DNA from: Candidatus Eisenbacteria bacterium
Lineage (GTDB): Bacteria; Eisenbacteria; RBG-16-71-46; JAFGJU01
Assembly: GCA_026388185.1 (NCBI GenBank)
Contig: JAPLKG010000008.1
Coordinates: 337,149-401,148 of the forward strand
Direction of reading: 5' to 3'
DNA length: 64,000 nt
The notes under the pieces were generated by a model that saw only the letters and a program-made list of their open reading frames with translations, searched no databases and had not been told where the DNA came from. A program made the position numbers and the translations under genes. How positions within the stretch are numbered: position 1 is the first letter of the stretch; each line of letters opens with the position of its first letter. Below are positions 1 to 23,700 of the stretch, piece by piece.

Positions 1-1461
1 ATAGGACAGTCCAGTGTGCGTGCCGTTGCCATCACGCCCGATGGACGGAGGGTCGTCTCAGTTGGGTTTTTGGACAAGATGTTGCGCGTTTGGGATACAG
101 AAAGCGGCGCGTGTGTGGGCACGATAGGCGCAGCCCCTGACACCACGACTCTGGCCATCAAACCTGATGGAGGCTTCGCCGTGTCAGGAGGGTGGCGCGG
201 GACAATCAAGGTCTGGGATCTGAGTACCGGTGAGGACGCCCACGTGAATCTAGGTCATCGCAAGAGCGTTGAGACCGTAGTCGTCACACCAGACGGGCGT
301 ATGGGCGTATCCGGGGGCTCAGGGAGTACGCTGCGGATATGGGATTTGGGTACAGGTGATTGCGTGCGCGTGATTGAGTGGACAGGGGTAGCAGAAGCAA
401 TTGAAGTGACGCCGGACGGGACGCGGTTGGTGTTGTCGGGCGAGAATCGCCTGAGTCTATGGAATCTCGAAACAGGAGAGTGCATTAAGCGGTTGTCGGG
501 AGACACGAATTGGGCAGACGTGATCGTCGTTACCCCGGACGGAAGGCGTCTTATCTCAGGTGGATCCGATGGAGGTGTGAGGGTCTGGGATCTGCACACC
601 GGAGAGCACCTGCAGGTCCTCGAAGGGCACACAGACTGCGTCCGAACCCTGGTGATCACCCCTGATGGGCGGCAGGTGATTTCCGGCAGCGATGACAAAA
701 GCGTCCGAGTGTGGGATGTCGAAAGCGGCGAATGCGTGCGTGAACTGATAGGCCACACCGATGCAGTCGAGGCAATCGCCCTGAGTCCAGACGCGGGTCG
801 CCTGGTCTCGGCAGGTGGCTTCGATCTTACGCTACGCGTCTGGAACCTAGAAAGTGGCGAGTGCTTGCACATACTCCAAGGGCACAAGTATAGAGTCAAA
901 ACCGTCGAGGTCACGCCCGACGGAGAGCAGGCAGTCTCTGCCGCACTTGACGACACTGTGCGGGTATGGAACCTACAGAGCGGAGAGTGCTTGCATGCAT
1001 TGGCCGGACATAGAGACAGAATAATCGCAATTGCCGTTAGCCAAGACGGGAGGCACCTTGTTTCCGGTGGAATGGACGGCACCGTTAGGGTATGGGATTT
1101 GGTTGCGGGGAGACAGATTGCCTGCTTCTCCGGCTGGGGGTATGTAAGGGCCTGCGCCCTGAGCCCGGACTGTCGTCGCATCCTCGCTGGTGGTGAAAGC
1201 GCTCTGGTGGGCCATGTTTTCTTGCTTGCGCTCGAGAATGCTGTCCACGATCCGTTGATCGCTACGGGCTGGCGTTCAACGGTCAACTCACGTCATGTGA
1301 TGCGTTGCCCACATTGCCGTACTTGGTCCGCGATTTCAGAATCTTACCTCGGCGCAACGCTAAGGTGCCCCGTTTGCCACCGTCTCATCCGGCTCAACCG
1401 CTTCACTATCAGTGGAAACTATCGTCCTATCCAGGCCGCTTGGCGCAGTCGGCAAACCTAA
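1..1461 (+). CDS. WD40 beta-propeller protein with C-terminal zinc ribbon (5' end outside window)
   Basis: The frame is open from base 1 and a repeat is already under way there, so the N-terminus lies outside the window; the GTG at 16 is probably internal. About nine or ten WD40 blades of roughly 40 residues follow, each with the pattern VTPDGRR..SGG...VRVWDL.SGEC. The last 60 residues hold two CxxC pairs (CPHC and CPVC), a small zinc ribbon. The same tail, ending in a similar hydrophobic-Asn-Arg motif, ends the broken DUF4062-NACHT-WD40 gene at 20.7-23.8 kb. By analogy this is likely the sensor half of a STAND NTPase whose NTPase part lies upstream. WD40 arrays in such proteins detect ligands or partners; the ligand here is unknown. 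The near-identity of the blades suggests recent internal duplication. Confidence 0.85.
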   Translation: MGQSSVRAVAITPDGRRVVSVGFLDKMLRVWDTESGACVGTIGAAPDTTTLAIKPDGGFAVSGGWRGTIKVWDLSTGEDAHVNLGHRKSVETVVVTPDGRMGVSGGSGSTLRIWDLGTGDCVRVIEWTGVAEAIEVTPDGTRLVLSGENRLSLWNLETGECIKRLSGDTNWADVIVVTPDGRRLISGGSDGGVRVWDLHTGEHLQVLEGHTDCVRTLVITPDGRQVISGSDDKSVRVWDVESGECVRELIGHTDAVEAIALSPDAGRLVSAGGFDLTLRVWNLESGECLHILQGHKYRVKTVEVTPDGEQAVSAALDDTVRVWNLQSGECLHALAGHRDRIIAIAVSQDGRHLVSGGMDGTVRVWDLVAGRQIACFSGWGYVRACALSPDCRRILAGGESALVGHVFLLALENAVHDPLIATGWRSTVNSRHVMRCPHCRTWSAISESYLGATLRCPVCHRLIRLNRFTISGNYRPIQAAWRSRQT

Positions 1462-1565
1462 TGCGGCTACGCCCAATAGGATTGAGGACCTAACTGGAAG
1501 GCCAACTGTAAATACGATTACGACTCAGCGCTCGCCAGACCGCCACATCATTTCCTGACTCTCAG

Positions 1566-1688
1566 TTTTCTCTCACCCTGTGCGACGAGGCCACGGGATC
1601 CGTCCAGAATCCCCGACAGTCTTGCCTGTAGTCGCTCTCGTCGCAATATGGGTGGAATCCCGCTCCCCGCACCAGCCGCTTTGCGACT
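1566..1688 (+). repeat. 123-bp direct repeat, left copy
   Basis: This block aligns without gaps to 24049-24171, with 94 of 123 positions identical by hand count. It begins TTTTCTCTCACC and ends CCGCTTTGCGACT in both copies. Within each copy GTCGCAA (1640-1646 here) can pair with TTGCGAC (1681-1687), so the last 48 bases could fold into a hairpin. It starts about 105 bp after the stop of the WD40/zinc-ribbon gene. In reverse complement both copies are open in one frame with related peptides, so a short coding remnant is an alternative. Confidence 0.75.
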
Positions 1689-1789
1689 GTAGGTGGATCC
1701 CAATATCCCTAACGGTTTATGAAGAAACCCCTGAGGCATAAGAGATGAACACCCTAACAGTTCGCCAGGGTTGTGGCATTGCTCAACCC

Positions 1790-4279
1790 CTATGTCTGCC
1801 GGCGGATATCGAGTCCAACCTTAGCTAGGAACTCTGGTATATTGCGCACCGTCTCTCTATCCCACTTCTTGACGTCTTCAGAGAGTTTGGTCCAAGGCAC
1901 AAGATAAGGACTGATCTTCTTGGTCACATCCCTCTCTTGACCTAATTTCCAGCCTTTCGAAAGCCTCTCGACATTCCACCGAGCATGTTCCATCTCAGCC
2001 ATAAGTTCGACCTCATCGCTAGTGAACGTCATTACCGCAATATTGCGATCAGTAACTCGGTGCACTGTGCAGCCAATCCGCTGCAGTTTCTCAAAAACGT
2101 GATCGGCCTGCTGCAGGTTAGAATCTCTAAGATCGCTCGCCAACTTTCCCCAATCTGCCATGGCCGGATCCTGGCCCGCCATGCTATCACAGCGAACTCG
2201 ACGGTAGTTCTCGTGGATTGCCTTTGCGATGTTCTCGCGAATTGTGCGCTCCACGGCTTGGCTTCTGGAGCCGATGAATGTTCGTGCGGTCATCGTATCC
2301 ACAGGCAGAGGGAGTAGTGAACTTGCGGTTCTCCATTCATCGTCTACCGGCAATCTCGCTGCTTCACCGCCACTGCCTTCTACAATGCCAACGACCGCAC
2401 CAAGAGCTAACGCTATTCTGTACTCCGCCGCAGCTATGCTACCGCCGCCGATGCCAAGCACCTTGACGCTCGACGGTTTGATATCCGATGTCACAATGTC
2501 AGTCCAATACTGTAGAGCCTCAAGCGGACTGTATCCCGTCCCATCTGAGTGACGCATCTCCACCGGTGATTTGTCGCTGAGAATACCCGGTGACTCGTCC
2601 GCCGGGACGTACCCGATCATTGTGATACCAGTGCCATGCTCTTTGTAGATATCCACAAGTGCAGGCTCTCCTCCGTCTGCGTTGAGACGTGAAACAACGG
2701 TTCCGTTGAAACCCCGAAACGCATCGAGCAGAAGTTGACGATAGCCCTGGGTCTCCTGCTCAGAGCCGGAGTTGACTCCGCCAACCAGTACGATGACAGG
2801 GCCTGTAATCGTACTGGCAGCCTTCGAGGCTAGAGCCTTGAGTCTTTCCAGGGATTCCTTTGAGGGAAACTTAATTGCCTGCCCGAGCAGAAGGAGTCTT
2901 CTTGCCCACTCGTACCCCTGCAGCTTGTCCCCGAAAACCGCGAGCCTATCCAGAGAACGAAGCGAAGTCTCTATCATGAATGCCGCCGTGCTTAGCTGCA
3001 CGGCTCGGGCATAAGCGGCTAGACTTTCGTAGGGCATCCCAAGCAGCAGGTAGAACTTCCCAATGTCATAGAAAGCCCAAGGTAGGTTCATACCCACATC
3101 GGCTTGATCGTGGCATCTGGCAATCGCACTGTCTATCGCAGGACGTAGCAATCCCACCATTGCAACGTCTGCGCGACGCAAGAGCTCACATTCAAGATAG
3201 TTTCCCAGAGGATACGGATCAGACGGGTCAAGTTCAAAGGCCTGGCGGTACAGTTCACGCGCCTTCTCGTCATCAATCCCTTTCCACGTGCCCGCCAACG
3301 AAGCCAGAGCATCGGGGTCTTTGTTGGGTGGCGCGGCAGCCGCCTCAAGATATTTCTGTCCGTTGCGGTATTCATCACTACCCGGGTTTGCCTTATGTAA
3401 CTTGCACATTGCCATTCCAAGGTCTCTGAGGATTGCATGGTTTCCCGATTCGGCATATCTCTTGAGCACGCTTATTGCCTTTTCAAAGTCATCGAGGGTG
3501 ATGGCTAGCTTCCCGATACGAGCAGCAAGGTCGGCGTTACCCGCATCATGTTCCAGGATGATCTCGAGAAGGTCGATCTCCTCGCGCATTGTTTCCTTAG
3601 TCATGTAAGCCCCGTAAGTGGCAGAGTAGCGTTGAAGAGCCGACTGGATTCTTGCAAATGAATTGTCGGTTTGCTCGAGCATGCCGGCCAGCGCCGATAG
3701 CTCTCGCTGCCACTTTTCGGGAATCTTGAAGGCGCCCTTGTAGGCTCTGTCATGAGTGAAAACCGCCCAGGCGTGTTCAAGTATCGTCTTTACCTGTATC
3801 TCCGCTTTGAGGCCGAGAGTCTCTTCCGGGATTTCAACGTCCACGTCCCCGGTCGGAAAGACACCCGGCCTCAATCGAACCACGTAGTGGACGGAACGAT
3901 AACCAAATTCAGCAGGCTTGAGCCGTTGTGCTACGTCGATAGTATTCTCCCAGTCAATGTCAAAGTGCCGTTCAATGAACTCACAGACGGCCCTGACTTC
4001 GGCAAGCGTGGGGAGTATCACTCTAGCGCCGCACAAGTCCGTTATCTGATTGACAGGATCCCTGTACTTGTTCTTCTTCCGCTGGATCTTTTCCCCAAAG
4101 CTAGCGACTGACTTTGGTCGTGTCTGTACGATGGCTAGCGGCGCGTACTTCTTCGCGGCTTTCTCGAGCACCACTTGGAGCATGTTAGCGTACTTCTGGT
4201 AGCGCCCATGTATAGATTTGTATTTCTCTATCTGACTTTTGGCCCATTCCTCTTCTTTAGATTTGGTGCTTTCTTCCAT
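1790..4279 (-). CDS. RelA/SpoT synthetase - TPR - SLOG-like - RyR domain protein
   Basis: An 829-residue multidomain protein. Residues about 20-220 match a RelA/SpoT nucleotidyltransferase, with the conserved DLCGARVI segment and the EIQVKTILEHAWAVFTH segment that carries the catalytic Glu and nearby His. Residues about 225-460 are TPR-like helices. Residues about 490-660 look like a Rossmannoid SLOG/LSDAT-type nucleotide-binding domain (VIVLVGGVNSGS, later VKVLGIGGGSIAAAEYR). Residues about 755-825 resemble a RyR domain (EHARWNVERLSKGW, then PYLVPWTKLSE). No HD hydrolase domain is present, so it could make but not degrade an alarmone. SLOG and RyR domains are reported to occur together in predicted nucleotide-based conflict systems, which suggests a nucleotide sensor joined to an alarmone-making effector. 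The start is supported by GAGGA 8 nt upstream. The domain names are pattern recognition, not search results. Confidence 0.8.
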   Translation of the reverse strand: MEESTKSKEEEWAKSQIEKYKSIHGRYQKYANMLQVVLEKAAKKYAPLAIVQTRPKSVASFGEKIQRKKNKYRDPVNQITDLCGARVILPTLAEVRAVCEFIERHFDIDWENTIDVAQRLKPAEFGYRSVHYVVRLRPGVFPTGDVDVEIPEETLGLKAEIQVKTILEHAWAVFTHDRAYKGAFKIPEKWQRELSALAGMLEQTDNSFARIQSALQRYSATYGAYMTKETMREEIDLLEIILEHDAGNADLAARIGKLAITLDDFEKAISVLKRYAESGNHAILRDLGMAMCKLHKANPGSDEYRNGQKYLEAAAAPPNKDPDALASLAGTWKGIDDEKARELYRQAFELDPSDPYPLGNYLECELLRRADVAMVGLLRPAIDSAIARCHDQADVGMNLPWAFYDIGKFYLLLGMPYESLAAYARAVQLSTAAFMIETSLRSLDRLAVFGDKLQGYEWARRLLLLGQAIKFPSKESLERLKALASKAASTITGPVIVLVGGVNSGSEQETQGYRQLLLDAFRGFNGTVVSRLNADGGEPALVDIYKEHGTGITMIGYVPADESPGILSDKSPVEMRHSDGTGYSPLEALQYWTDIVTSDIKPSSVKVLGIGGGSIAAAEYRIALALGAVVGIVEGSGGEAARLPVDDEWRTASSLLPLPVDTMTARTFIGSRSQAVERTIRENIAKAIHENYRRVRCDSMAGQDPAMADWGKLASDLRDSNLQQADHVFEKLQRIGCTVHRVTDRNIAVMTFTSDEVELMAEMEHARWNVERLSKGWKLGQERDVTKKISPYLVPWTKLSEDVKKWDRETVRNIPEFLAKVGLDIRRQT

Positions 4280-4372
4280 CTGAACGTTCCTCGTGGTTTC
4301 GGTGCTTTCCGATGACTATCTATAATCGGAGAAAATGGTTTTCGATCTTACTGCTGCCATCTTGGGAAACGG

Positions 4373-4786
4373 TCAACTTTCCTCGGCTTGAATGTAGTTC
4401 TTAGCAAACACTCTGAATTGATCCACCAGATCCATGTCCGCAAGATCATGAGGATCGACCCAGATGTATTCGTCGTGCTCGCTGCTAAGGCGGACCTCGC
4501 CGGATTCTACAATACCTTCTAGAATCAAGTATGCAACTCTAGTCGTAGGCGACTCGTACTCGGACGCTCCCAGAACACGTTGAAGTGAAACCCGCAGGCC
4601 GGTCTCCTCGGCAACCTCGCGCAGCAGCCCCTGTTCAAAGCTCTCCCCACTGTCAACTTTACCGCCGGGTAGGTCCCACCTCCCAGGGCTTCCCCTGGAA
4701 CTCAACGAACGCTTGAGGAGCAGACAGCGTCCGTTGTTATCACGAAGCAGGACCTTGGCAGACAACCTAATCGGTCTTGATGACAT
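4373..4786 (-). CDS. Nudix hydrolase
   Basis: A 138-residue single-domain protein with a complete Nudix box at residues 41-64 (GGKVDSGE, then REVAEETGL), matching GX5EX7REUXEEXGU. Nudix enzymes hydrolyse nucleoside diphosphates linked to another group. The substrate cannot be read from this sequence. The ATG at 4786 is chosen because GGGAG lies 6 nt upstream; a longer frame reaching 4873 adds 29 residues with no recognisable content. It lies 93 bp upstream of the RelA/SpoT-SLOG-RyR gene on the same strand, so the two may be co-transcribed, with this gene first. If so it could remove the nucleotide that the neighbour makes or senses, but that is inference. Confidence 0.85.
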   Translation of the reverse strand: MSSRPIRLSAKVLLRDNNGRCLLLKRSLSSRGSPGRWDLPGGKVDSGESFEQGLLREVAEETGLRVSLQRVLGASEYESPTTRVAYLILEGIVESGEVRLSSEHDEYIWVDPHDLADMDLVDQFRVFAKNYIQAEES

Positions 4787-5065
4787 TACGTGCTCCCAAT
4801 TGGTGACTGAAATCCGTTTATTGGATTCCGGGTCCTCAGAGGCGTAAGTTGCGATACAAGGACTGCTCAGCACATCGGCCCGGACCGTTGCATCCAGCTT
4901 CTCAAGCCGGAAGGATTAGCACTATTCTTCGTTCTCAACGATAATGGCCCTGCTTTCGGACAGGGAAGCAGGTTAAGAGAATACTCTACCACTCCCGCGA
5001 ACTGTTGGCCAGCCGTCTTCTTTCCTTATAGGTACTCGTGCGCACATTAACGCTCTCTTCGCTAC

Positions 5066-5220
5066 TCATTGCATGGCCTGCAGACAGGATTTCCAGTTCT
5101 TCTCAATCATCTTGGTACTAGGGTGGTTGGGTCCCAGGATCTCTTCAGCTATTCCCAGGGCATGTTTGTATAGAGGCTCGGCCTCGGGATAGTTACCCTG
5201 GGCATAATAGAGCAGGGACC
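5066..5220 (-). pseudogene. C-terminal tail of a kinesin-light-chain-type TPR protein
   Basis: Read on the minus strand this segment is open for about 51 codons and then stops at 5066. It contains YAQGNYPEAEPLYKHAL and EEILGPNHPST, the typical KLC-type TPR repeat. The upstream part is missing: the frame runs straight into the IS3-type element at about 5221, and nothing similar continues on its far side. A TPR gene was evidently cut by the insertion, and its 5' part was lost or rearranged. Confidence 0.7.
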
Positions 5221-6211
5221 TCCCCCCACAAAAATGATCCACTCATAATGTGAGTTTTCTGGCAAGATCTCTGTTTCTGGAAGGGGGTTTCGTCCATGAG
5301 GAAGTCGAAGTTCAGCGAGGAACAGGTTGCGTTTGCGTTGCGGCAGGCGGAGACGGGCACGCGGGTGGCGGAGGTCTGCCGGAAGGTGGGGATCAGTGAG
5401 CAGACGTTCTTTCGATGGAAGAAGAAGTACGGAGGGCTTGGAGTTTCGGAGCTCAGGCGTCTGAAGCAGCTCGAGGAGGAGAACCGTCGGCTCAAGCGCA
5501 TGGTGGCGGACCTGAGCCTGGATAAGCAGATGCTTCAGGATGTGCTGTCAAGAAAGCTCTAAGGCCAGCCCAGAAGCGTGAGCGCGTGGAGCATCTGCAA
5601 GAGGCGTATTGGGTGAGCGAACGGCGGGCATGCGATGTGGTGGTGATATGGCGATCGTCACATCGGTACTGTTCGCACGGGAGAGACGACGGAGCCTTGC
5701 GGATGCGGATCCGGGAGATCGCAGAGACGCGGTTTCGGGCGTTAACGATAGTCGATAATTATAGTCGGGAGTGCCTGGCGATTGAAGCCGGTCAAAACAT
5801 CACGGGAGCGGAAGTCGTCGCCGTCGTGCGGCGGCTCGTGAAGGAACGGGGCGTTCCTGATCGCATACAATGCGACAAGGGGAGTGAGTTTATTTCTAAG
5901 GTTTTGGATAAGTGGGCCTATGAGCATGGAGTCACGATGGATTTCTCGAGACCCGGCAAGCCCGGTGACAACGCGATGATCCAGTCGTTCAATGGAACGT
6001 TTCGGGATGAATGCCTGAATGTGAATTGGTTCTTGTCAATGGAGGATGTTCGAGAAAGAATAGAGAGGTGGCGCGAGGAGTATAACATGTTTCGACCTCA
6101 TAGCTCGCTCGGTGATTTGACGCCACGGCAGTTCGCCGAGCAGTTCGCTGTGAGCTCGCAAGGTCAGAAAACTCTACTTTTGGCTGGACGGGGTAAGGTC
6201 AGAATGGGTTG
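5221..6211 (+). mobile_element. Decayed IS3-family element
   Basis: The element holds an intact orfA and an internally deleted orfB in the usual order. The left boundary is set by the break in the TPR remnant at about 5220. The right boundary is a guess, just after the end of orfB. The inverted decamer GAGTTTTCTG occurs at 5252-5261 and, in reverse complement, at 6165-6174, so it lies inside both ends. I could not define the exact terminal repeats or a target duplication. Without a complete transposase the copy cannot move by itself. Confidence 0.7.
5296..5562 (+). CDS. IS3-family transposase OrfA
   Basis: An 88-residue protein with an N-terminal helix-turn-helix (FSEEQVAFALRQAETGTRVA, then ISEQTFFRWKKKYGG) and a C-terminal leucine-rich coiled coil (LEEENRRLKRMVADLSLDKQ). 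This is the usual OrfA layout: terminal-repeat binding plus multimerisation. In IS3 elements OrfA is joined to OrfB by -1 frameshifting. Here the OrfB frame is already open across the end of orfA (reading KKALRPAQKRERVEHLQ), so the frameshift arrangement is kept although OrfB is broken. Confidence 0.85.
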   Translation: MRKSKFSEEQVAFALRQAETGTRVAEVCRKVGISEQTFFRWKKKYGGLGVSELRRLKQLEEENRRLKRMVADLSLDKQMLQDVLSRKL

Positions 6212-6284: not shown

Positions 6285-7388
6285 CTACTCCCGTTTAAGC
6301 TCCCTCTTCCAAATCATGTCGAGAAATCTGTCAAGTAGTCCAGATGAAACGAAAAGATTCACAGCTTTAGTAGTTTCGTGGGCGAGATTACCCCAGAGTG
6401 CTACCCGCCTGTCTCCCTGGTCCATGGAATGCTGAACGGTTATTCTCTCCTTACTGACTGGGTCTCTTGGGAGCGCTTTAACAATATCCGCGGTCAATTT
6501 GTTGCTGACCGGCCCCCCGATGGCAATGAGCGGACATCTCATGAATTCCTGTTCTGCGAGCAGCCCCACGTCCGTGACCACACAGGCAAACTCCATTTTC
6601 TCGGGACTGCCTTTGCGATTGATTTCGTTCCTCAGCTCTGTTGCGTCTTCTCCATCGTGTATCTGTGGAAGGATCATGGCGCCTACAACTATCAATATGC
6701 TCTTCCTCCAATCCGGCCGCCTCTCCCGAAGCAGTTCACCAACGTTCACTGTCCAGCCCGGATGCTTGTAGAGGGGATCTATCCCATGGATGTCGCATAG
6801 AAGATCCCGTGCCTCGGGAATCTGAAGGTGCTTCCAGTATTCCATGGCCCTCGCAAATGCCACTACTAGCCCCGCTTCTGCGGGGGAGTGAGCCATCGAA
6901 TCCTGACCAGCATGAGATGCTGAAGTAATCTCTTGTGACCCAGCCGGCCGAACCCCCAACTCAAGCAACCCTCTTTCTATGCGAGGAAGAATGGCCAGCA
7001 CACCCTCTGGTGGGATTCTGATTGAGACGGCAGCCCCCAGACACTGCGCCAGGTCAGGCTTGCGTTCCTGAAGCTCAGCGTGAGTGATGTCGCGAAGGAC
7101 GGGAATAAAAGGCTTACCCTGTTCATAAGCTCTGACAACTTCGTTCGTGGTGTGGGAAGCACGGGCACGAAGGAAATCCTGGGAGATTACCACCAGAACA
7201 ACTCTGGCCTGATCGATTGCCTCTCGCACCTGAGTTAGGTAAGTAACCCCGGGAAGGGCGTCACGTTCGTAATACCAGGTCGTATAGCCTGCTTTCTCCA
7301 GTCCCTCAGCAAGTTGCTTTACTACGTCGGAGTTTTTCTCAACGTAACTGACGAAAATATCAGCCTTGCGGAGTCTCGAATTCGACAT
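6285..7388 (-). CDS. TIR domain protein with uncharacterised C-terminal domain
   Basis: A 367-residue protein. Residues about 9-140 form a TIR domain: DIFVSYVEKNSD at the first strand, a BB-loop region YYERDALPGVTY, then VVLVVISQDFLRA and a TTNEVVRAYEQGKPFIPV segment whose Glu sits where the catalytic Glu of NAD-cleaving bacterial TIRs is found. After a linker, residues about 220-360 form an alpha/beta domain I do not recognise, with ILIVVGAMILP and CPLIAIGGPVSNK. The GG-P-N turn suggests a nucleotide or sugar ligand, but this is only a visual impression. NAD cleavage would be the default activity for the TIR part. A weak TGAGG lies 9 nt before the ATG. Confidence 0.8.
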   Translation of the reverse strand: MSNSRLRKADIFVSYVEKNSDVVKQLAEGLEKAGYTTWYYERDALPGVTYLTQVREAIDQARVVLVVISQDFLRARASHTTNEVVRAYEQGKPFIPVLRDITHAELQERKPDLAQCLGAAVSIRIPPEGVLAILPRIERGLLELGVRPAGSQEITSASHAGQDSMAHSPAEAGLVVAFARAMEYWKHLQIPEARDLLCDIHGIDPLYKHPGWTVNVGELLRERRPDWRKSILIVVGAMILPQIHDGEDATELRNEINRKGSPEKMEFACVVTDVGLLAEQEFMRCPLIAIGGPVSNKLTADIVKALPRDPVSKERITVQHSMDQGDRRVALWGNLAHETTKAVNLFVSSGLLDRFLDMIWKRELKRE

Positions 7389-7636: not shown

Positions 7637-9334
7637 CTATGGCCGAAGCACTTGAAACCTGAATATCACCCGCCAGTCCTGGTTTTCCAGAAGCATCAGC
7701 TCGTTGGCTTCTTCCAGGGAACCGACGAGCGTCTCCCTGTCTTCTGATTGCTCTATTCGCCCCGTAATTCTGGTCAAGTGGTCGACCATGTGTCTATATC
7801 GCTCCGAGTTTCGTAAGTACTCGCGGTGAATACGAATGCTTGCGATAGCAGCGCCAGCCGCCGGCAGAACTATAGCCCAGGACGCCAAGATATTCGTAAG
7901 AGTAGCAAGCTCTGGTCTCCAGTTGGCTTCGAGCCTGCCCGCATGGACGATTGCGACCACTAGCGTCAACGCGAACACCATCGCTCCGGCACTGGCAAGC
8001 CGAGTGTGCTTTGCCCTCTGCCTCACGCTTTTGCTCTTATAGAAAGAGATTTGGTCTTCTATCCATGCCGCCAGCAAGAAGTTTCTAAGATTCTCGAATG
8101 AGACTGTGGGGCTCGGGTCTCCCTTGGGCCGTGCGTCCCAAATCGACGCAAATGCCTTAACCATCCAGTCATCTGGCCTGTACGATAGGCTCAGGGGTGG
8201 TGGTGCAGTTTTGGGAGGCTCGCATTCTATGCCTGCCACCCACAAAAAAATAGCGGCACGCAGACGCTCTGCCACAAATCTATAATCAATCCATTTGCGA
8301 TGCCACTCACGCCGCCAGGAAAGCGCCAGTAACACGAGAATGGCCGCAATCTCACCAACCTCAACCCAAAGTAGGGCAGGGCGAAGCGGAAATAGAAGCG
8401 CTTGAACTGTCACTGTTGCCACTGCAGCTGCCGCCAGAAGGTAGATTGCAACTCCTGCGTTCACATGGTAGGTCTGGTAGTGAGCGGCCAGGAAATCGGC
8501 ACGTGCGTATTGAGAGACCATGTTGTCATGTAACGGCTTCAGAACGTCTGGCGGAAGGGTGTAAGGCGCCCCCGTTCGACCCGGAATGCCGAACTCAGCC
8601 TCAACTGCCGACATACTCCTGGTGCTGCCTAAGCGCTCGCCATTATAGGCGTCCAGATGCCTAAGAGAGTCAAGCGCATGATCCTCGCTTCCCACTCCCT
8701 CTGTTTTCTTCTCTTCGTTTATGCGCTCCAGCCTCTCCCTCGTCTTCTTTGTATCTCCTATCTCGCCATTCTCCGAATTGATCCAGAATACGGACCGTCC
8801 GGTCTTGAGCGCATATTCCACTATCTCCGCCGTGCCCCCTCGGCCTTCCGAGGGTTTCCCGCTCCAGACGGCAATGAGCACGTCGCAATTGTCGACTACA
8901 TACTGACCCACCTGCTCATATGCAGCAGGGCGGGGCTCCACAGTCTTGAGGGCGCGTGGTTCAGGGCTTGCCAGACCAAGAAGGCGCTTGAACTCTTCCT
9001 TCGATTCTTGTGTCTCGAAGTCTTGAAGATAGTCTTCCTCAGGTAATGGAAGTACTACTTCCAGACGGGGTTGCTGGCTGCCATCGGAGACCGGCCACTG
9101 CACAATCTCTGTCGCGACCAGGCGGTCGGCACCCTCGGCTAAAGGTGAAAGCACCACATAGAGGTGCGGCGTGTGATCCAGAAGCTGGTCGATTCGCCGG
9201 AGCACGTCCTTCACTTTCCGGCGAAGAAGTTGCTCATTCGCAAGCTTTCTGTGGCCTGTTACGCCCATGCGCACAGTTGTGGGAATAAGGAGTTCCTTCC
9301 GATCAACTGACGAATCTGTGACCTTGTTTCTCAC
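7637..9334 (-). CDS. SLOG-like nucleotide-sensor domain with two membrane (SLATT-like) pairs
   Basis: A 565-residue protein. Residues about 18-200 look like a SLOG-type Rossmannoid domain: VRMGVTGHRKL at the first strand, then LSPLAEGADRLVA and CDVLIAVWSGKPSEGRGGTA. The C-terminal half has two hydrophobic pairs, at about 288-335 and about 443-498, each followed by a charged helix (WRREWHRKWIDYRFVAERLR and IRIHREYLRNSERYRHMVDH). This resembles the SLATT (SMODS and SLOG associating two-TM effector) arrangement. Published analyses predict that such proteins form pores when the SLOG part binds a signal nucleotide. The GTG start has GGGAGG 8 nt upstream. The SLATT assignment rests on topology and context. 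Confidence 0.75.
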   Translation of the reverse strand: MRNKVTDSSVDRKELLIPTTVRMGVTGHRKLANEQLLRRKVKDVLRRIDQLLDHTPHLYVVLSPLAEGADRLVATEIVQWPVSDGSQQPRLEVVLPLPEEDYLQDFETQESKEEFKRLLGLASPEPRALKTVEPRPAAYEQVGQYVVDNCDVLIAVWSGKPSEGRGGTAEIVEYALKTGRSVFWINSENGEIGDTKKTRERLERINEEKKTEGVGSEDHALDSLRHLDAYNGERLGSTRSMSAVEAEFGIPGRTGAPYTLPPDVLKPLHDNMVSQYARADFLAAHYQTYHVNAGVAIYLLAAAAVATVTVQALLFPLRPALLWVEVGEIAAILVLLALSWRREWHRKWIDYRFVAERLRAAIFLWVAGIECEPPKTAPPPLSLSYRPDDWMVKAFASIWDARPKGDPSPTVSFENLRNFLLAAWIEDQISFYKSKSVRQRAKHTRLASAGAMVFALTLVVAIVHAGRLEANWRPELATLTNILASWAIVLPAAGAAIASIRIHREYLRNSERYRHMVDHLTRITGRIEQSEDRETLVGSLEEANELMLLENQDWRVIFRFQVLRP

Positions 9335-9948: not shown

Positions 9949-12765
9949 TCATCTCGGGAATATGTGCGAGGCGGACTGGCACAGCTTGATGCTCCGACGC
10001 GCCAGTTCCTCTCTAGTGGCGGACATGCTAGACGCGACACATAGAGCGTCAGCCCACACTCGTTCCCCTTGTTCGTGTTGACCGGCATGCCACGCGATGG
10101 CACCCTGACCGGTCAGTGCCCGGTACAGCCAAATCCTTATGTCTTTTTCACGGCAAAGGTCGGCAACGCTCTGATACCACTTTAGCGCCTCTGCCGAATC
10201 TCCTTGCACATGCGCAAGCGCTCCCAATTCCATTTCGTATTCAGCAAGCAGTTCCCCATGCTGCCGCTTTAGTAGCTTGCTGCCGGCCATCTCCAACCAT
10301 TTGGCTCCTTCCTTGAGATCGCCCCGGACCAGTGCACACCAGCCCAAAGCCAATCTTGCCTCTAGAGTATAGTAGAGATCGTGCACGCGTTCGGCCTCAC
10401 ACAAAGCTTCCCGGAAAGCCGCGTCCGTTTGTCCAGGAGTCCAGCCTTCAAGCAGTGCCCGGTCGTACTCAAGCCAACCGCGGAGCATGAGCAGCCGCGC
10501 CTTTTCAAGATGAACCTGCTCCGTTTCACTGAGCTTGGCCGCGAGTTGCAGATATGAGTCTGTTTCATCGTATCTGCCGGCAGCTTTGTGGACCGTCGCA
10601 ATCATGCGCGCGGCGGCAACAATGTGCCGGATATCGTGGGCCTGCCGCGCCTGTCGTAGGCCCCATGTCGCTTGGCGCATGACCTCCTCGAATTCGTAGC
10701 GCGCATAAGCGACTGTGGCCAGTCCAATCAGATTCGCCGCTGCTTCATCGTGATGGATCGGCATCCCCCACAGACAAAGACGCAGGGCCTGACAATAGCA
10801 TCGCTTGGCGCTGACCGTGTCCCCATCGTAGAGATGCAACGAACCCAATTCGTGCAGTGCTATCGCCCGAATCCGACGCCCTCGCCACCAAGAGGTTCGG
10901 GCCAGTGCGTAATTCAATCTCTCGCGCGCCTCTTGGTATTCTCCTCTCAAGCTGCATATCCTGGCAGCCTGCGTGGCGAGCCCTGCGGCTTGCATCGGAC
11001 TGTGCTCCGGCTTTTCGAGGTGACGGATCAGGGCGTCGAGACAGTACAGGCCAGTGTTGCCTTCGCCTTGCTCAACCCAGCGGGTTACGAGGTTCATCTC
11101 AGAGTCGAACACGAGATGCCTCAGGTCATGCCACCGCCTTGCCTCAACCAGATGCACCGGTAAATGGCGTGTGGCGTAGGGTGACATTGCCTTTGTGTCG
11201 GACTCATACTCCTTCCAGCAGGCACTCGCCAGTTGTTGATGCCCGGCCTGCGTAGAAATCGCGTATTCTAGGCTGTATTTCGCCTCCGTGAGCCAGTCCG
11301 CAAGACTGGAGTGAAAGAGTCTGATTCCTTCTTCGCGCCACCTTAGAAACTGCGCCAGATCGAGCAGGCCACAGCGGACGCCCGGCTCCTCTCCATTGAC
11401 AGCACTGACCAGGAGTCTCTCGGGAATCGGTTCACGCGCTGCCACGAGGCAATTGAGCAGCGGCAATATCTTGAGTTCGTAGGCTTTGATGTCCTTGAAC
11501 CGTTTCTGGAACAGCGAGTAGTACAGCCCTTTCAGTTCCGGGGGGATTGCCCCAATGTCCTGATGGCCCAGGCGTCTCTCCGGATCAGTGAGTGCTTCCA
11601 GAACCGTGTGGGCATATAGGAAATTGCCTTCAGCCCGTGTCTGCAGGCGAACGCATGTCGCCTCCAATTCCGAGTCCGACGAAGCGATCGACTCGATCTG
11701 AGAAAGTCTCTGTCGGACGTACGCCGCGACGTCCTCCTGATTTCTCTCTCGTTCGGCGCTCAGATCGAGGGTCTTGAAGCGGGCCAGGCGGATGAGAATG
11801 CTGGATACGGGTCGGGTGGTAACGACGATTCTAAGCCATGCAGGCAGTGTGTCAGCATGTTCTGCCAACAGGTCAACGATCGTCTCGCCTTCCATGGACG
11901 TTGCCTCATCCAGCGAATCCACAACCACTAACCTGGGTCCATCGGGTGCCGGCATCTTGCGGGTCGGCTCGACGATCAACTCCCGGAAGGCATCATTGGC
12001 GTTCGGCCGTCGGGCTTGTGGATAGGCCGGTTCGACTGCGGAATCATAGCCCTGCAACTCCGAATAGAATTGGGCAACCAGTGATGTCACTAACTCGTAT
12101 GGATTGAGCGTACGTCTATTTCGGGTTGTGCAAAAGTGGATGCCGATAACATGTACAGGCCGCGTTTGACACAACCAGGCAGCAATCGCGCTCTTTCCAG
12201 CGCCTGGTTCGCCCACGACAACGAACACTCGATCTGACGCATCATGCAACCAGTGACTGATTCGTTGTCTCAGCCAATCCCGTCCCACAAAACCGAATCC
12301 GTACTGGGCAATCTCAGGCCCGAAGTCAAGTGGGGTCAGACCACTGACGGTCGGCAGCGCCGGTGGCAACAGGACATCTTCGGCTCCTGCTAGGAATTCG
12401 CGCAGGCGACGTAGACCCTCATCATAGTTGCGCGTAAAATCAACCCAGTTCCGACGAACCAGCGGCAATGTGAACTGAGCATCTGGTGAAACTCGTGCCG
12501 GAATCACTGGACGTGGCAACACCAGCGCAAACGCCACTTCATCGCGGCAGACGCTATCTTCACGCGTAGCATGTGGCGTCAAGACCGCGACCAGTAGAGA
12601 CGAATCCAGGATTGCGCGTTCAATGGCAGCGTCCCAAGGCTGGCTGAGCCTGATGCCAGACTCATCCCACCACACTACGTAGCCTGTCGTCTCGAGATCG
12701 CGTCTCAGCCGTCCGGCAAAAGCCTCACCGTCTGCGTGACCGTAGCTTATGAATATCTGCTTCAC
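9949..12765 (-). CDS. TIR - NACHT (STAND NTPase) - TPR protein
   Basis: 938 residues from a GTG at 12765. TIR domain at residues about 1-110 (VKQIFISYGHADGEAF, WWDESGIRL, RDEVAFALVLPRPVIPA). The NTPase has Walker A VVGEPGAGKSAIAAW near residue 183 and Walker B RLVVVDSLDEAT near 280, followed by the arginine-rich IVVTTRPVSS. From about residue 570 to the end there are TPR-like helices (GEYQEARERLNYAL, AAGRYDETDSYLQLA). The order effector-NTPase-sensor is that of STAND immune receptors; TIR activation would be expected to consume NAD. The frame is open further upstream to 12912, but that part is a relic of another gene, so I prefer the GTG right before the first TIR strand (AAGGTGG about 10 nt upstream). 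Confidence 0.8.
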   Translation of the reverse strand: MKQIFISYGHADGEAFAGRLRRDLETTGYVVWWDESGIRLSQPWDAAIERAILDSSLLVAVLTPHATREDSVCRDEVAFALVLPRPVIPARVSPDAQFTLPLVRRNWVDFTRNYDEGLRRLREFLAGAEDVLLPPALPTVSGLTPLDFGPEIAQYGFGFVGRDWLRQRISHWLHDASDRVFVVVGEPGAGKSAIAAWLCQTRPVHVIGIHFCTTRNRRTLNPYELVTSLVAQFYSELQGYDSAVEPAYPQARRPNANDAFRELIVEPTRKMPAPDGPRLVVVDSLDEATSMEGETIVDLLAEHADTLPAWLRIVVTTRPVSSILIRLARFKTLDLSAERERNQEDVAAYVRQRLSQIESIASSDSELEATCVRLQTRAEGNFLYAHTVLEALTDPERRLGHQDIGAIPPELKGLYYSLFQKRFKDIKAYELKILPLLNCLVAAREPIPERLLVSAVNGEEPGVRCGLLDLAQFLRWREEGIRLFHSSLADWLTEAKYSLEYAISTQAGHQQLASACWKEYESDTKAMSPYATRHLPVHLVEARRWHDLRHLVFDSEMNLVTRWVEQGEGNTGLYCLDALIRHLEKPEHSPMQAAGLATQAARICSLRGEYQEARERLNYALARTSWWRGRRIRAIALHELGSLHLYDGDTVSAKRCYCQALRLCLWGMPIHHDEAAANLIGLATVAYARYEFEEVMRQATWGLRQARQAHDIRHIVAAARMIATVHKAAGRYDETDSYLQLAAKLSETEQVHLEKARLLMLRGWLEYDRALLEGWTPGQTDAAFREALCEAERVHDLYYTLEARLALGWCALVRGDLKEGAKWLEMAGSKLLKRQHGELLAEYEMELGALAHVQGDSAEALKWYQSVADLCREKDIRIWLYRALTGQGAIAWHAGQHEQGERVWADALCVASSMSATREELARRSIKLCQSASHIFPR

Positions 12766-12960
12766 TGCCGCCACCTTCGACTGCACCAACGGAAGCGCCG
12801 AATGCCAAGGCCATTCTGTACCCCGCTGCGGCGACGCTGCCCCGTTGATACCCAGAACCTTGACCGTTAATGGAATAATATCAGAGGTCACGGTGTCAAT
12901 CCAATACTCCATTGGCTTCAGCAGGCTGGATTCCTCCGTGTCTGAGCGGCAGATTTTTGG
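12766..12960 (-). pseudogene. Remnant of a SLOG-like domain, paralogous to the 1.8-4.3 kb protein
   Basis: Translation of this stretch gives EYWIDTVTSDIIPLTVKVLG, which aligns with QYWTDIVTSDIKPSSVKVLG in the RelA/SpoT-SLOG-RyR protein; over a 23-residue overlap about 16 match. A frame change then follows, and the next segment in a second frame reads YRMALAFGASVGAVEGG against YRIALALGAVVGIVEGS. The fragment therefore carries a frameshift and lacks both ends. It lies directly before the TIR-NACHT start codon and explains the odd N-terminal extension of that reading frame. Confidence 0.75.
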
Positions 12961-15982: not shown

Positions 15983-18169
15983 TCATTCTCGGGTATCCTG
16001 ACCCCCGTCGCGCATGAATAGAAGTACCCAATCGTCGAAATGCTTACTGGCAAGCTCAGGAGGTGGCGGAACAAGGTTTGGGGAGACCAATGGCACAGGG
16101 TCGATGAAATCCAGCCCTCGGGTTGATAGGGCACATCTCCACTCCATCTCCACCCACTTGGATGCCTTGGCATGGCTCGACCAGAAAAGGTAGAAGATAT
16201 CCTGGGCCGGAATGACATTCACTAGCTCTTTCGCCCAGTACTGGCCAGATCGAAGTTCCACCGAGTCCACCCAAACCTTGAGCTCGGTTGATGTTTTCTG
16301 CATCCCTTGGAGGCGTGCGCCAACTGCCTTCTTATCCTGGCTGGCGTAGCAGACGAATGCTTTGCGATGCCTTTTCTCACTCGAAGCAAGAACCTCCTCC
16401 GTCTTCGTGCTGCCAGGGCTGCCCACTTCTACGACAAACGACAACCGTGCGATTTCTAACCCAGCGACACGAATTGAAGCAGTCCCTTGCTTTTCGCCAA
16501 GCGATACGCCTTCGGGGGCACTCGCAAGGAACGTCGCATTACCCATGCTCCCAACCCACAGGATGGTATCCTCCGGGTTAGGAATGATGAACCCTTCCAA
16601 GTTCAGCACCACCGTTAGCACAGTACCTCTTGAGATCAGAGCGGGACCCTTTGTGCGAAAACGGACCGGCTTTCCCTCCGCTTGCGCCTGCGCTCGCTTG
16701 AGAAGCAGTTCACGCTGTTTCTCAAGGTGAGCCCATATGTCGATGACAAACTTAGCTCCTCTCGCAACGACGGGCGGCGATGTCACTGAAAAATGTACTT
16801 GGTCAAGGGTCTCCTTAGGAGCTCCCGGTGAGCCTCGACGAAACAAGGTTCTCAGATATCCTGCTGGTTCGCGTCTAGGCCAAACGGAAGGCTGCCTGCC
16901 TTCTTGTCTGGTGTCCCCCTGGCCTGAGAGGATATGCTGCACAGCTTTGAGATTTCTCTCAATGGCCTTGTCCTTGGGCTCCAAGCTCCGTGCGTCTTGC
17001 AGCAAACGGGCAGCCCCTCGCATGTCCCCCCTGCGCACCGCGTCGTATGCTATCTGATTGAGACAAACTGCCCTGAGACGGCTCACTCCGCTAGATTGGA
17101 CGAAGTCCCGTGCCACCATATCGACTTCAGCCACAGCCCCCTCAAAATCCTTGCACCTGAATCTAGAGAAAGCCTCTCGGAGAGCTTTCTCGTTACGGAC
17201 GTGCGTCATACCTTGCTCGATTTCGTCGCAACCAGGTTTGCATTGAGATGCTTGGTGCAGTTGCTTGTCCGCTTCGTCAAACTCTTCACGTTCGATGGCT
17301 CGGAAAGCGAGGAAGCAATGAGATAACCCAAGCAACAGATGGTATCGGGGAGAAGCTTTCAACGATTGGCTTAGCCCGCATGCTTCTCGAAGAGCGACCT
17401 CAGCTTCCTTTTCAGAGCATTGAGCGGCGGAGTGAAGCCTGGAGGAAATCTCCGCCCATACTAATTGGGGAGTGGATGTTTCGGATGGAGCAGCGCTCAT
17501 CATAGGCAGTCCAAAGAAACACCCGGCCCGGCGATCGCCACGAAAGTAGCGATCAGTCAATAGCCTAACAATCTGACTCACGAGAGTTAGTTTCCTATTG
17601 ACGTCTCTCCAACGCGAAAAGTCGAATTGTTCCCAGGCAGCCAGGCCCACGGGTTCTAGTTCTGCGAGTGTCTGCCTGATATCTTCGAGCAGGGGCTCAT
17701 GCTTGAACCGTTCCAAAACGGCCCTCGTAGTCTCTGCAATCCGCTTGAACTCTTCGTAGCTTGGTCGAAACAGCCCTTGTCGAGCCAGCGCAGCACCATC
17801 CATCAGCTCAAGGCCTGATAACACGCCCTCGACATGAAGGGCAACAAATTCCACAATGCTCTGCAGTTCGGTTGAAGAAAAAGACCCTGACGGATCGTTC
17901 ACAGAGACTGGAACCAAGGGAAGGCGACGGTCGTCAGGGCGTTCCATTCTCAGAGCTGCAAGATCACCATCCGAAGTTTCCGTCGTAAGAGCAACAAGCA
18001 AGCAACAATCTGCGCTATCTTCTCGTCTGGTTGCATCACGGCTGGCGCCAAGTGAACCTTGGCGAAGAACAAGCTGGCTTGGGATGCCTCGGTCTTCTAA
18101 GGCTGAAGACATCCGCTGAGCGACTTGTCCATGGACTTGGCGATAGCTGATAAGAACCCATTTCCTCAT
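15983..18169 (-). CDS. TIR-like domain - TPR - beta domain - TIR protein
   Basis: A 728-residue protein. The N-terminal 110 residues start like a TIR domain (KWVLISYRQVHGQVAQRMSS, then CCLLVALTTE). Residues about 255-420 are TPR-like (ERNLKAVQHIL ends the run). A beta-rich segment at about 455-585 begins VHFSVTSPPVVARGAKFVID. The last 120 residues are a clear TIR domain (KAFVCYASQDKKAVGARLQG, VWVDSVELRSGQYW, VEMEWRCALS with a Glu at the usual catalytic position). No P-loop is visible. A TIR effector at the C-terminus with a TIR-like domain at the other end is unusual. AAGGTGAT upstream of the ATG supports the start. Confidence 0.75.
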   Translation of the reverse strand: MRKWVLISYRQVHGQVAQRMSSALEDRGIPSQLVLRQGSLGASRDATRREDSADCCLLVALTTETSDGDLAALRMERPDDRRLPLVPVSVNDPSGSFSSTELQSIVEFVALHVEGVLSGLELMDGAALARQGLFRPSYEEFKRIAETTRAVLERFKHEPLLEDIRQTLAELEPVGLAAWEQFDFSRWRDVNRKLTLVSQIVRLLTDRYFRGDRRAGCFFGLPMMSAAPSETSTPQLVWAEISSRLHSAAQCSEKEAEVALREACGLSQSLKASPRYHLLLGLSHCFLAFRAIEREEFDEADKQLHQASQCKPGCDEIEQGMTHVRNEKALREAFSRFRCKDFEGAVAEVDMVARDFVQSSGVSRLRAVCLNQIAYDAVRRGDMRGAARLLQDARSLEPKDKAIERNLKAVQHILSGQGDTRQEGRQPSVWPRREPAGYLRTLFRRGSPGAPKETLDQVHFSVTSPPVVARGAKFVIDIWAHLEKQRELLLKRAQAQAEGKPVRFRTKGPALISRGTVLTVVLNLEGFIIPNPEDTILWVGSMGNATFLASAPEGVSLGEKQGTASIRVAGLEIARLSFVVEVGSPGSTKTEEVLASSEKRHRKAFVCYASQDKKAVGARLQGMQKTSTELKVWVDSVELRSGQYWAKELVNVIPAQDIFYLFWSSHAKASKWVEMEWRCALSTRGLDFIDPVPLVSPNLVPPPPELASKHFDDWVLLFMRDGGQDTRE

Positions 18170-20708: not shown

Positions 20709-23700
20709 ATGGTGCCTCGTGACTTGACCTTCCGGGTCTTTGTCAGCTCGACGTTCAGCGATCTAATCGCCGAGCGGAATGCGCTTCATGAGCTCGTATT
20801 CCCCAAGCTGCGTGAGTTGTGCCTTCAGCATGGCTGCCGCTTTCAGGCGATTGATCTGCGCTGGACCAGCAGACGATGAACATCTGCCTCAAGGAGCTGG
20901 AGCGCTCACAATCGGTTACCCCTCGGCGCAACTTCATGGTCCTCCTGGGCGACCGCTATGGCTGGCAGCCGCTACCGCCGCAGATTGAAGCCGGAGAGTT
21001 TGAGGCAATTCTGAAGAAGGTTTCGCTCCAGGATAGGGAACTTCTCCTCTGGGATGATAAACAATCAAATGGCCCGAGAGGCTGGTATCGGAAGGATGAA
21101 AACGCCGTTCCGACCGAATACTGCCTCAGACCGCGTGAGATCAGGGTTCTAGAGAATGCTACTGATGAAGAGAGACGGGAGGCCTTAAACCAGGAGGCCA
21201 TGGAATGGGAAGAGACAGAAAGGGTGTTAAGGTCAATTCTTCTTCGGGCTCTGGACCAGCTTCACTGGCCCGAGGCTGACTCCCGCCGCATAAAGCACGA
21301 GTACTCAGCCACTCACCAAGAGATAATAAACGGGGCATTACGTGTGTCAGATGCGCAGGAGCATGTCTACTGCTTTTTCAGAGAGATCGAGGATTTACCC
21401 GAGGGCTCAAGCGCAAGGGATTCTATCGACCTTGACCAGGCTGGACATCTGGATAGTGGGTCGCGCCAGCATCCTAGAACGGATAAGTAATCACCTGAGA
21501 AGCAAAGATACTCATCCATTAGTCATCTTCGGTGTGTCTGGTTCTGGTAAGACAGCCCTAATGGCGCATGCAGCGCAAAGGGCGCGGGAGGCGCTTCCCA
21601 ATGCCCGGCTTTTTGTTCGCTTTGTAGGTGCTACTCCGGGCTCATCTGACGGGCGTGCCCTGCTGGAAAACCTCTGTCATCACATATATGAAGTGTTCGA
21701 CTTCGACGGGCAAAAACGAAACCTCCTCATTGGTATAAAAGAGACTGGCAAGGAGGAACAGAGGAGACGACAGCGTATCGAGGAGGAGTATTCGATCCCC
21801 ACGGAGTTTCAGAAGCTGTCTGTGACCTTCCGAAATTTCCTTGCAAAGATACCATCCTCAGAGAAACTAATTCTTTTTCTGGATGCTTTGGATCAACTTT
21901 CTGACAGTGACCATGCCCGAAGCCTGTACTGGTTGCCTACGGAATTACCCCAGAATGTGCGCCTCATCGTTTCCTGCCTGGCTGGCGAGTGTCTCTCCGT
22001 GCTCCAGAAAAAGCTGCCTGCTGCAAACTTTGTGGAGTTGTGGCCAATGGAGCCTGAGGAAAGTGAGAAACTCCTGAACCTCTGGCTCCAAGAAGCTGAC
22101 AGGACCCTTCAGTCTCCGCAGCGGGCCGAGGTCCTGGCTAAGTCTCGGCAATGTGGTCTACCTTTGTATCTAAAGCTAGCTTTTGAGGAAGCCAGCCGCT
22201 GGAAGTCTCATACCGAAAAAATAGAGCTCAGTCCTGACATATCAGGCGTCATCCGCGACCTATTCCAACGGCTGTCCTCGGATGTCAACCATGGCGGGGT
22301 GATGGTGTCGCGCAGCCTGGGATACCTGGCCGCAGCCAAGAACGGCCTGACCGAAGATGAGCTCCTGGACATCCTGTCGCAGGATGAAGAGGTTATCGCC
22401 GATTTCCTGCGCCGCTCGCCACGGTCACCGGGAGTCAAACATCTACCCGTGGCTGTCTGGTCGCGCCTTTACTTCGACCTGGAACCGTATCTCACGGAAC
22501 GCAGTGCTGACGGGGCATGTTTGATGACTTTCTATCATCTCCAGTTTAGCAAGGTCGTGGCGGAAGAGTTCCTAGCGGGCCAGGTTAGGGTTCACCGGCA
22601 TGAAGCGCTGGCAGGTTATTTTGGACACCAACCTTTGTGGATCGAGAAGGAGGCTCAAGAGAATGTCAATCTACGCAAAATGTCCGAGTTGCCCTACCAG
22701 CAGACGCATGGCAAGTTGTGGAACGAAATAGAGAAGACCCTATGTGACCTCCACTTCATCGAGGCTAAATGCGCGGCGGGAATGACGTACGACTTGATCG
22801 GTGACTACGGCGCCGCCCTGGACGCCCTGCCCGAGGCTCAGGGGCAGAAGCGGAAAGAGCTCGAACACGAGGCACGGGTCAATAGATATACCGGAGACCT
22901 AATTGCCTTTGCCCGGCGAGAGATTTCTTCTCTTGATATCATCCCGTCCGTTGAGCTGTGGACCGATGAGATGATAAGAAAAGATACTGAAAGGATTGTC
23001 CATAACCCGACCCGTCTCGACCGGATTCAAGCCTTTCTGCAATTTGCGAACTCCGAATGCCATGGCTTGGTGAAGTTCGCTTCGCACAGCGGCTTCCGTA
23101 TCCAGCAGGCTTGCAATTCAGCCGACTCTGGTCCTGTGGGAAGGGCTGCTGAGAGCGCATTGAATGCAGAAGTTAGCCACTGCCTGCTGCTGCATCACCG
23201 GTCACAGCGCTTCAGGCATAACCCGCACCCTGCACTCGTAAGAACACTTGAGGGTCACTCAGGTGATGTGAATAGCGTGAGCATTACTCCAGACGGGAGG
23301 AGAGCAGTTTCCGGCGCTTGGGACAGGACGCTGCGGGTATGGGACTTGGGAAGTGGACAAGATATCTCCATTTATCAGGCGAGGAGCGTGATAAGGTCAA
23401 TATCAGGAATCGAAGCAAAGGGAAGTCTTGTGTTTGGTACGGCAACAGGCTAGGTCATTTTGCTTACAGGCTTTCATCTCGCTGCGGCGTTCCCGATAGT
23501 AACCCCGCTTCGGCTCTGGCAGTATGTGGATTGGTCAGGGATGGTGCGGGGCATTAAGGAGAGAGAAACCTCACTATTGGAGAAGAAAAAGACTCATGGC
23601 TGCTGGGACGATGACATCGCAGTATCATGCCGGTGGTGCGGTCAGCGTTTCCCGGTCTCGGTCGAAATCCTCAATGTGATAACTGATATTGCCCAGAATG

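Follow-up and report, generated by a model that had tools for sequence, protein, structure and literature searches.

The synthetase gene and its surroundings

The window, that is, the whole stretch of 64,000 nucleotides analysed here from a Candidatus Eisenbacteria contig, contains an intact open reading frame on the minus strand (1790-4279) for a protein of 829 amino acids, in which a RelA/SpoT (RSH) synthetase domain is followed by a TPR part, a SLOG domain and tandem RyR repeats. A gene for a Nudix hydrolase of 137 amino acids (4373..4786, minus strand) is found 93 bp upstream of it in the same orientation. It matches PF00293 with an E value of about 7.2e-24 to 1.3e-23, its open reading frame spans 4373-4873(-) and contains an ATG at 4786, and it is the single PF00293 gene detected in the window's genome (G000). 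Further upstream, also on the minus strand, are the genes for a TIR protein of 367 amino acids (6285..7388; TIR_2, E 1.8e-17), which is a candidate signal maker, and for a SLATT membrane protein (7637..9334; SLATT_1, E 9.3e-14). The TIR and Nudix genes are separated by a defective IS copy with transposase domains on the plus strand (5216..6188), which lacks about 218 bp compared with longer copies elsewhere in the genome.

The first part of the window (1-24000) has the look of a defence island, with a WD40 protein, TIR, SLATT, TIR-NACHT-TPR and DUF4062-TPR proteins and a further TIR protein (15983-18169), whose TIR domain is 60% identical to a small TIR protein beside the family in locus L037. 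By eye, a coding remnant resembling the TPRs of kinesin light chains was seen at about 5065-5215(-), just upstream of the Nudix gene, where it is cut by the IS copy. Another relic, of a second SLOG copy, lies in two frames at 12758-12945(-) and overlaps the annotated start of the TIR-NACHT frame (9949-12912). The relic suggests that the synthetase gene may formerly have had a second copy at this place, and the true start of the TIR-NACHT frame is probably further in.

Domain architecture of the chain

The first domain (aa 1-225; 3605..4279, minus strand) matches RelA_SpoT (PF04607) in Pfam at aa 53-182, with an E value of 2.6e-18, and its PDB relatives are RelQ/YjbM and YwaC (Foldseek TMt 0.79 for 5ded and 0.81 for 6fgk). 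The catalytic residues are intact: the R-x-K, DxxGxR, GYxSxH and ExQ..H motifs are all present, and R54, K56, K64, D81, G84, R86, Y127, H131, E160, Q162 and H169 are invariant in 13/13 family sequences. Judging from its residues and predicted structure, this domain is a small alarmone synthetase with a fold nearest to those of B. subtilis SAS1 and SAS2. RelQ (SAS1, YjbM) and RelP (SAS2, YwaC), its best PDB matches, share the synthetase fold and all the catalytic motifs examined, but they are stand-alone enzymes of about 210 amino acids, whereas the domain in the window is fused to TPR, SLOG and RyR sensors.

The initial annotation had held that the hydrolase half of RelA/SpoT is missing, and we found no Pfam match to an HD hydrolase on the 829-aa chain; TGS and ACT domains were likewise unmatched. 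The chain thus differs from the long RSH proteins (Rel/SpoT), which carry an N-terminal HD hydrolase and TGS/ACT domains, and a separate housekeeping long RSH is found in the window's genome in an 812-aa frame. The CapRel and toxSAS toxins are similar in that an RSH domain is fused to a sensing part with a possible use in defence, but their fusion partners are different, and the structural match to CapRel is only partial (7ztb, TMt 0.43).

The TPR scaffold (aa 226-482; 2834..3604, minus strand) is matched by several Pfam TPR models and is all-helical in the predicted model, with a pLDDT of about 90. Within it, aa 264-363 are similar to TPR-S, with a score below the Pfam cut-off (E 6.7e-5).

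The SLOG domain (aa 494-675; 2255..2800, minus strand) is of the TRPM (LSDAT) type. The LSDAT_prok match in Pfam is weak on the full window protein (E 0.035), but the assignment was settled by two results, as the profile matches 13/13 SLOG segments of the family (best E 3.2e-11) and the fold matches TRPM2. For the latter, an AlphaFold2 model of the SLOG domain alone (pLDDT 85.2) gave TRPM channels as its best PDB matches, led by TRPM2 N-termini with ADP-ribose-type ligands (E 2.4e-5), with a LOG-like protein, the MCP carrier protein and DprA also among the matches. Only this fold search was informative: a profile search of the SLOG part against PDB sequences returned nothing useful, and SLOG relatives were absent from the best 50 matches of a fold search with the whole chain (AlphaFold2 model, pLDDT 84.7).

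In the window copy, the glycine motif of the SLOG domain has been lost (2660..2695, minus strand), with SRLNADGG in place of the SGGTTAGI found in other members, and the other 12 retain GGTTxG with minor changes. A frameshift was considered as the source of this loss and rejected, as the alternative frames do not restore the motif. Without it, RyR or TPR may be the sole sensor in the window copy. Moreover, given the replaced motif and the IS copy that splits the TIR gene from the Nudix gene, the system in the window may be partly decayed or specialised.

The RyR module (aa 682-828; 1796..2236, minus strand) consists of two repeats, placed in tandem by alignment, an arrangement that is also that of Repeat12 in animal ryanodine receptors. 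Repeat 2 (aa 753-826) matches PF02026 with an E value of 9.4e-16 and 58.3 bits, against a curated cut-off of 27.4, and repeat 1, which according to the alignment begins at about aa 687, is degenerate. The PDB matches of the module are Repeat12 of RyR1 and RyR3, and structures of human RyR3 Repeat12 with ADP, ATP or dantrolene rank among the best matches by fold. The phage RyR protein RyDEP uses H75, W78, H100 and D117 to bind and cleave 2'/3'cADPR, and its homologues bind cADPR signals tightly; six of the eight phage homologues tested bind, and RyDEP alone cleaves (PMC13232231, a May 2026 preprint). At the residue spacing of RyDEP (0, +3, +25, +42), the window protein has H765, W768, S790 and D807. 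The proposed catalytic dyad (H and D) and the adenine-stacking W are therefore kept, and the phosphate contact H100 is absent, its equivalent being S, N or T in the RyR modules of the family. The likeness to Repeat12 and RyDEP lies in a PF02026 tandem repeat module with the ligand residues H, W and D, while the fusion to a synthetase and the H100 equivalent set the window module apart.

Distribution of the family

Chains of this kind occur in about 16 genomes, from six bacterial phyla and two archaea, and are 34-60% identical to the window protein. The recurrence of this domain order in distant phyla argues that the chain did not arise by chance, and together with the Pfam and fold matches it bears out the original proposal that RelA/SpoT, TPR, SLOG and RyR are joined in one protein. 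When 84,980 genomes were scanned with the TPR-SLOG part as the query, 14 loci were obtained, from Chloroflexota, Gemmatimonadota, Acidobacteriota, Planctomycetota, KSB1, Eisenbacteria, a member of the Thermoplasmata and a Lokiarchaeote, and the family set used here consists of the window, these 14 loci, L063 and L006. The named member genomes are all metagenome-assembled. Locus L041 comes from genome G091 and L042 from G029, which belongs to the window's class, and L035 holds an intact member (2826-5339). The synthetase chain is without RyR in L036, L038 and L006. By eye, the L006 protein (211-3504), in which RyR is absent, has a sigma-54-type AAA activator domain ahead of RSH-TPR-SLOG.

The distribution of the synthetase chain is patchy. 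Within the phylum of the window, it is present in 2 of 47 genomes (G000 and G029), the matches in G026 and G021 being to RyR only, and it was found in 3 of 150 genomes of one class and 1 of 149 of another. The idea that plasmids or phages carry it was also considered and rejected; in the plasmid and phage collections the full-length chain is absent and all matches are to the RSH domain only, as are the five matches in viral contigs.

Partner genes

At 8 of the 14 loci with readable neighbours (L031 is cut downstream), a Nudix gene is adjacent to the synthetase gene or, in L041, within 1 kb of it, which has a binomial P of about 7e-11 at an assumed rate of 1% Nudix per neighbouring gene. Searches with the Nudix box and phmmer found no Nudix elsewhere among the open reading frames of the loci, and in the six Nudix-less loci there is no other constant small neighbour. 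Among small neighbouring genes, Nudix is the most constant one. The Nudix gene lies 5′ of the synthetase gene in the window, L029, L031 and L039 and 3′ of it in L033, L034, L040 and L041, and it overlaps the synthetase gene by 4 bp in L033 and L040. Since the two types sit on opposite sides and are only 26-34% identical to each other, they may have been recruited independently. Six of the eight Nudix copies have a proline 16 residues after the Nudix box, and this leans mildly towards ADP-ribose as the substrate. ADP-ribose diphosphatases share a proline on the downstream side of the box (PMC5389931). Dunn in 1999 reportedly placed it at a distance of 16 residues. The closest solved relatives are of the MutT/NudI type and not ADPRases, with the window Nudix being MutT/NudG/NudI-like.

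A TIR protein is found beside or near the synthetase gene in about half of the loci (the window, L029, L030, L032, L036 and L038, with small or fragmentary ones in L037 and L039), and its C-terminal part varies between loci, being TPR/propeller, LRR or other. The TIR domain in the window, in which the glutamate is kept, is 50-55% identical to those of the TIR proteins adjacent to the family in L030 and L032, and the protein that carries it (6285..7388) is likely to be the signal maker.

Membrane proteins are also frequent partners. A protein with two transmembrane segments and a TrkA_N domain (2TM-TrkA_N) is present at eight loci in total, with RyR in L029, L030, L032, L033, L039 and L063 and without it in L036 and L040; in L063, the gene for this channel-like protein and the synthetase gene share 4 bp. 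SLATT proteins occur at two loci, the window and L031. The window SLATT is 38% identical over 549 aa to that of L031 (6608-8353), which lies directly upstream of the Nudix and synthetase genes. An AAA-RyR protein is encoded at two loci, L036 and L041, and in L036 the RyR module that is absent from the synthetase is carried by this neighbouring ATPase.

RyR genes are rare, with one in the window's genome and none in 14 control genomes. Of the relatives with a RyR gene that is not part of the RSH chain, 5/5 have one such gene in the synthetase locus, and only one of the five (G202) has a further RyR gene outside the locus. A recent duplication of RyR within the operons was considered and rejected, as the modules carried by RSH chains and those carried by channel-like proteins for the most part form separate branches, without excess identity within loci. 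Outside synthetase loci, 2TM-TrkA_N-RyR proteins were also seen in relatives (L009 1-1911, L011 229-1914, L012 1498-3351 and L018 1114-3012), and these stand-alone proteins form a wider bacterial family with a pore motif unlike TVGYG. An AAA-RyR protein away from the synthetase locus was likewise noted in a Planctomycetota genome (L064 2369-4933(-)), where it adjoins a protein similar to window 21342-23453.

The initial annotation saw the synthetase and Nudix genes as a self-contained system. The pairing itself stands, being conserved at 8 of 14 loci, the window among them, but a limit to two genes does not, as TIR proteins and RyR-bearing channel-like or ATPase partners recur, nor is Nudix a constant second gene.

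A possible mechanism and its alternatives

The idea of a synthetase switched by a ligand fits the evidence for this chain. The family looks like an immune or stress system that would halt growth upon an NAD-derived signal, and we give about even odds (a probability of roughly 0.5) to the reading that its loci are conflict systems responding to such a signal, with the alarmone synthetase as the effector and Nudix as the reset. We propose this path because the sensor modules, TIR, the RyR membrane partner and Nudix share loci. TIR proteins are able to make ADP-ribose or cADPR-type nucleotides from NAD, and ADP-ribose, cADPR isomers or adenine nucleotides are ligands of SLOG and RyR modules elsewhere.

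The analysis shows the domains and their folds, the catalytic residues, part of the ligand contacts and the conserved operons; as for the identity of the ligand, the activation, the product, the channel activity and the role in defence, we infer the following. An invader or damage would be detected by a TIR protein, whose sensor part varies (TPR, LRR or beta-propeller repeats) and which would make ADP-ribose or a cADPR-type nucleotide. The synthetase chain would read this signal through its TRPM2-type SLOG and tandem RyR, with the TPR part as the coupler, after which the RelQ-like domain would make (p)ppGpp or a related nucleotide, so that growth halts. In many loci, the same signal could gate a second, membrane effector, either the 2TM-TrkA-RyR channel-like protein or SLATT. 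Finally, Nudix would act as the reset, and what it destroys is most likely the ADP-ribose-type signal and less likely the alarmone. In nvTRPM2, ADPR activates MHR1/2 and is hydrolysed by NUDT9H (PMC7555694), which makes this channel a working analogue of the proposed signal reading and Nudix removal. TRPM2 resembles the window system in the type of SLOG, by fold, and in the Nudix partner beside an ADPR-sensing SLOG, but its output is a pore rather than a synthetase, and the window Nudix is a separate, MutT-like gene. Several observations count against the proposed mechanism: TIR neighbours are not universal, that of the window is split off by the IS copy, RyR H100 is not kept, the window's SLOG is without the glycine motif of the other copies, three synthetase chains (L036, L038 and L006) have no RyR, and the closest solved relatives of the Nudix are not ADPRases.

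A synthetase without a hydrolase half, so tightly linked to a Nudix gene that the two overlap in L033 and L040, might instead be one half of a pair similar to toxin-antitoxin systems, in which a toxic synthetase, constitutive or activated by stress, is countered by a Nudix antidote that hydrolyses the alarmone, and the sensors bind some other nucleotide. Small alarmone hydrolases do act as antidotes to toxSAS toxins. The Nudix enzymes NudG, MutT and NahA are also reported to act on (p)ppGpp (PMC5845004, PMC7593582, PMC7584652), to which the likeness of the window Nudix to MutT and NudG adds weight. Nevertheless, an antidote should be indispensable, yet 6 of the 14 synthetase loci have no Nudix, the Nudix types are rather different from each other, and PADLOC matched neither CapRel nor toxSAS, reporting only the candidate PDC-S33. 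We consider such a pair unlikely.

It is also conceivable that the chain is a metabolic sensor that tracks NAD turnover or the adenylate state and feeds the stringent response, with the nearby TIR proteins being mere passengers of a defence island. The housekeeping long RSH offers a possible feed-in point, and RyR Repeat12 binds ATP and ADP, but neither the patchy distribution described above, at 2 of 47 genomes of the phylum, nor the variability of the repeat sensors and the repeated presence of TIR, SLATT and RyR-channel partners, which look like a conflict system, agree well with this role, and we find it quite improbable. Least credible is that the RyR module destroys or sponges the signal as RyDEP does, restraining the synthetase by cADPR removal instead of activating it, since, although the H and D of the dyad are kept and six of eight phage homologues bind signals, with RyDEP alone cleaving them, the phosphate-contacting H100 is missing and RyR is also fused to the channel-like protein and the ATPase in the same operons, which is a better fit to a shared input.

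Relation to known systems and implications

The conflict system that we favour resembles Thoeris in having a TIR neighbour, at about half of the loci, and a SLOG-bearing putative effector chain, with an NAD-derived signal as the likely link. In contrast, ThsA of Thoeris carries SIR2, and other types carry Macro-TM and others, whereas the effector here is RSH-TPR-SLOG-RyR, with a SLOG of the TRPM type and additional RyR, Nudix and TrkA partners. In the literature searched, we found no Thoeris with a synthetase effector and no TRPM-type SLOG and RyR sensors that have an alarmone synthetase as their output; the work of Burroughs and Aravind (nucleotide-centric systems 2015, TPR-S 2020) lay outside this search and may mention one. 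The parts and nucleotide-gated conflict systems are already known, and their combination on an alarmone synthetase appears to be new. More tentatively, at somewhat below even odds, this could be the first immune family in which a TIR signal leads to an alarmone, with TRPM2-type SLOG and RyR on the synthetase, RyR on the channel-like protein of the operon and a Nudix reset.

If this is true, the stringent response would be joined to TIR/cADPR-type immunity through a growth-arrest effector that is known from no characterised Thoeris type. In addition, the ADP-ribose sensors known from the animal calcium channels TRPM2 and RyR would already be cooperating in prokaryotes, and it could be tested whether a common ligand serves both RyR and TRPM-type SLOG domains and whether they originated in bacterial conflict systems.
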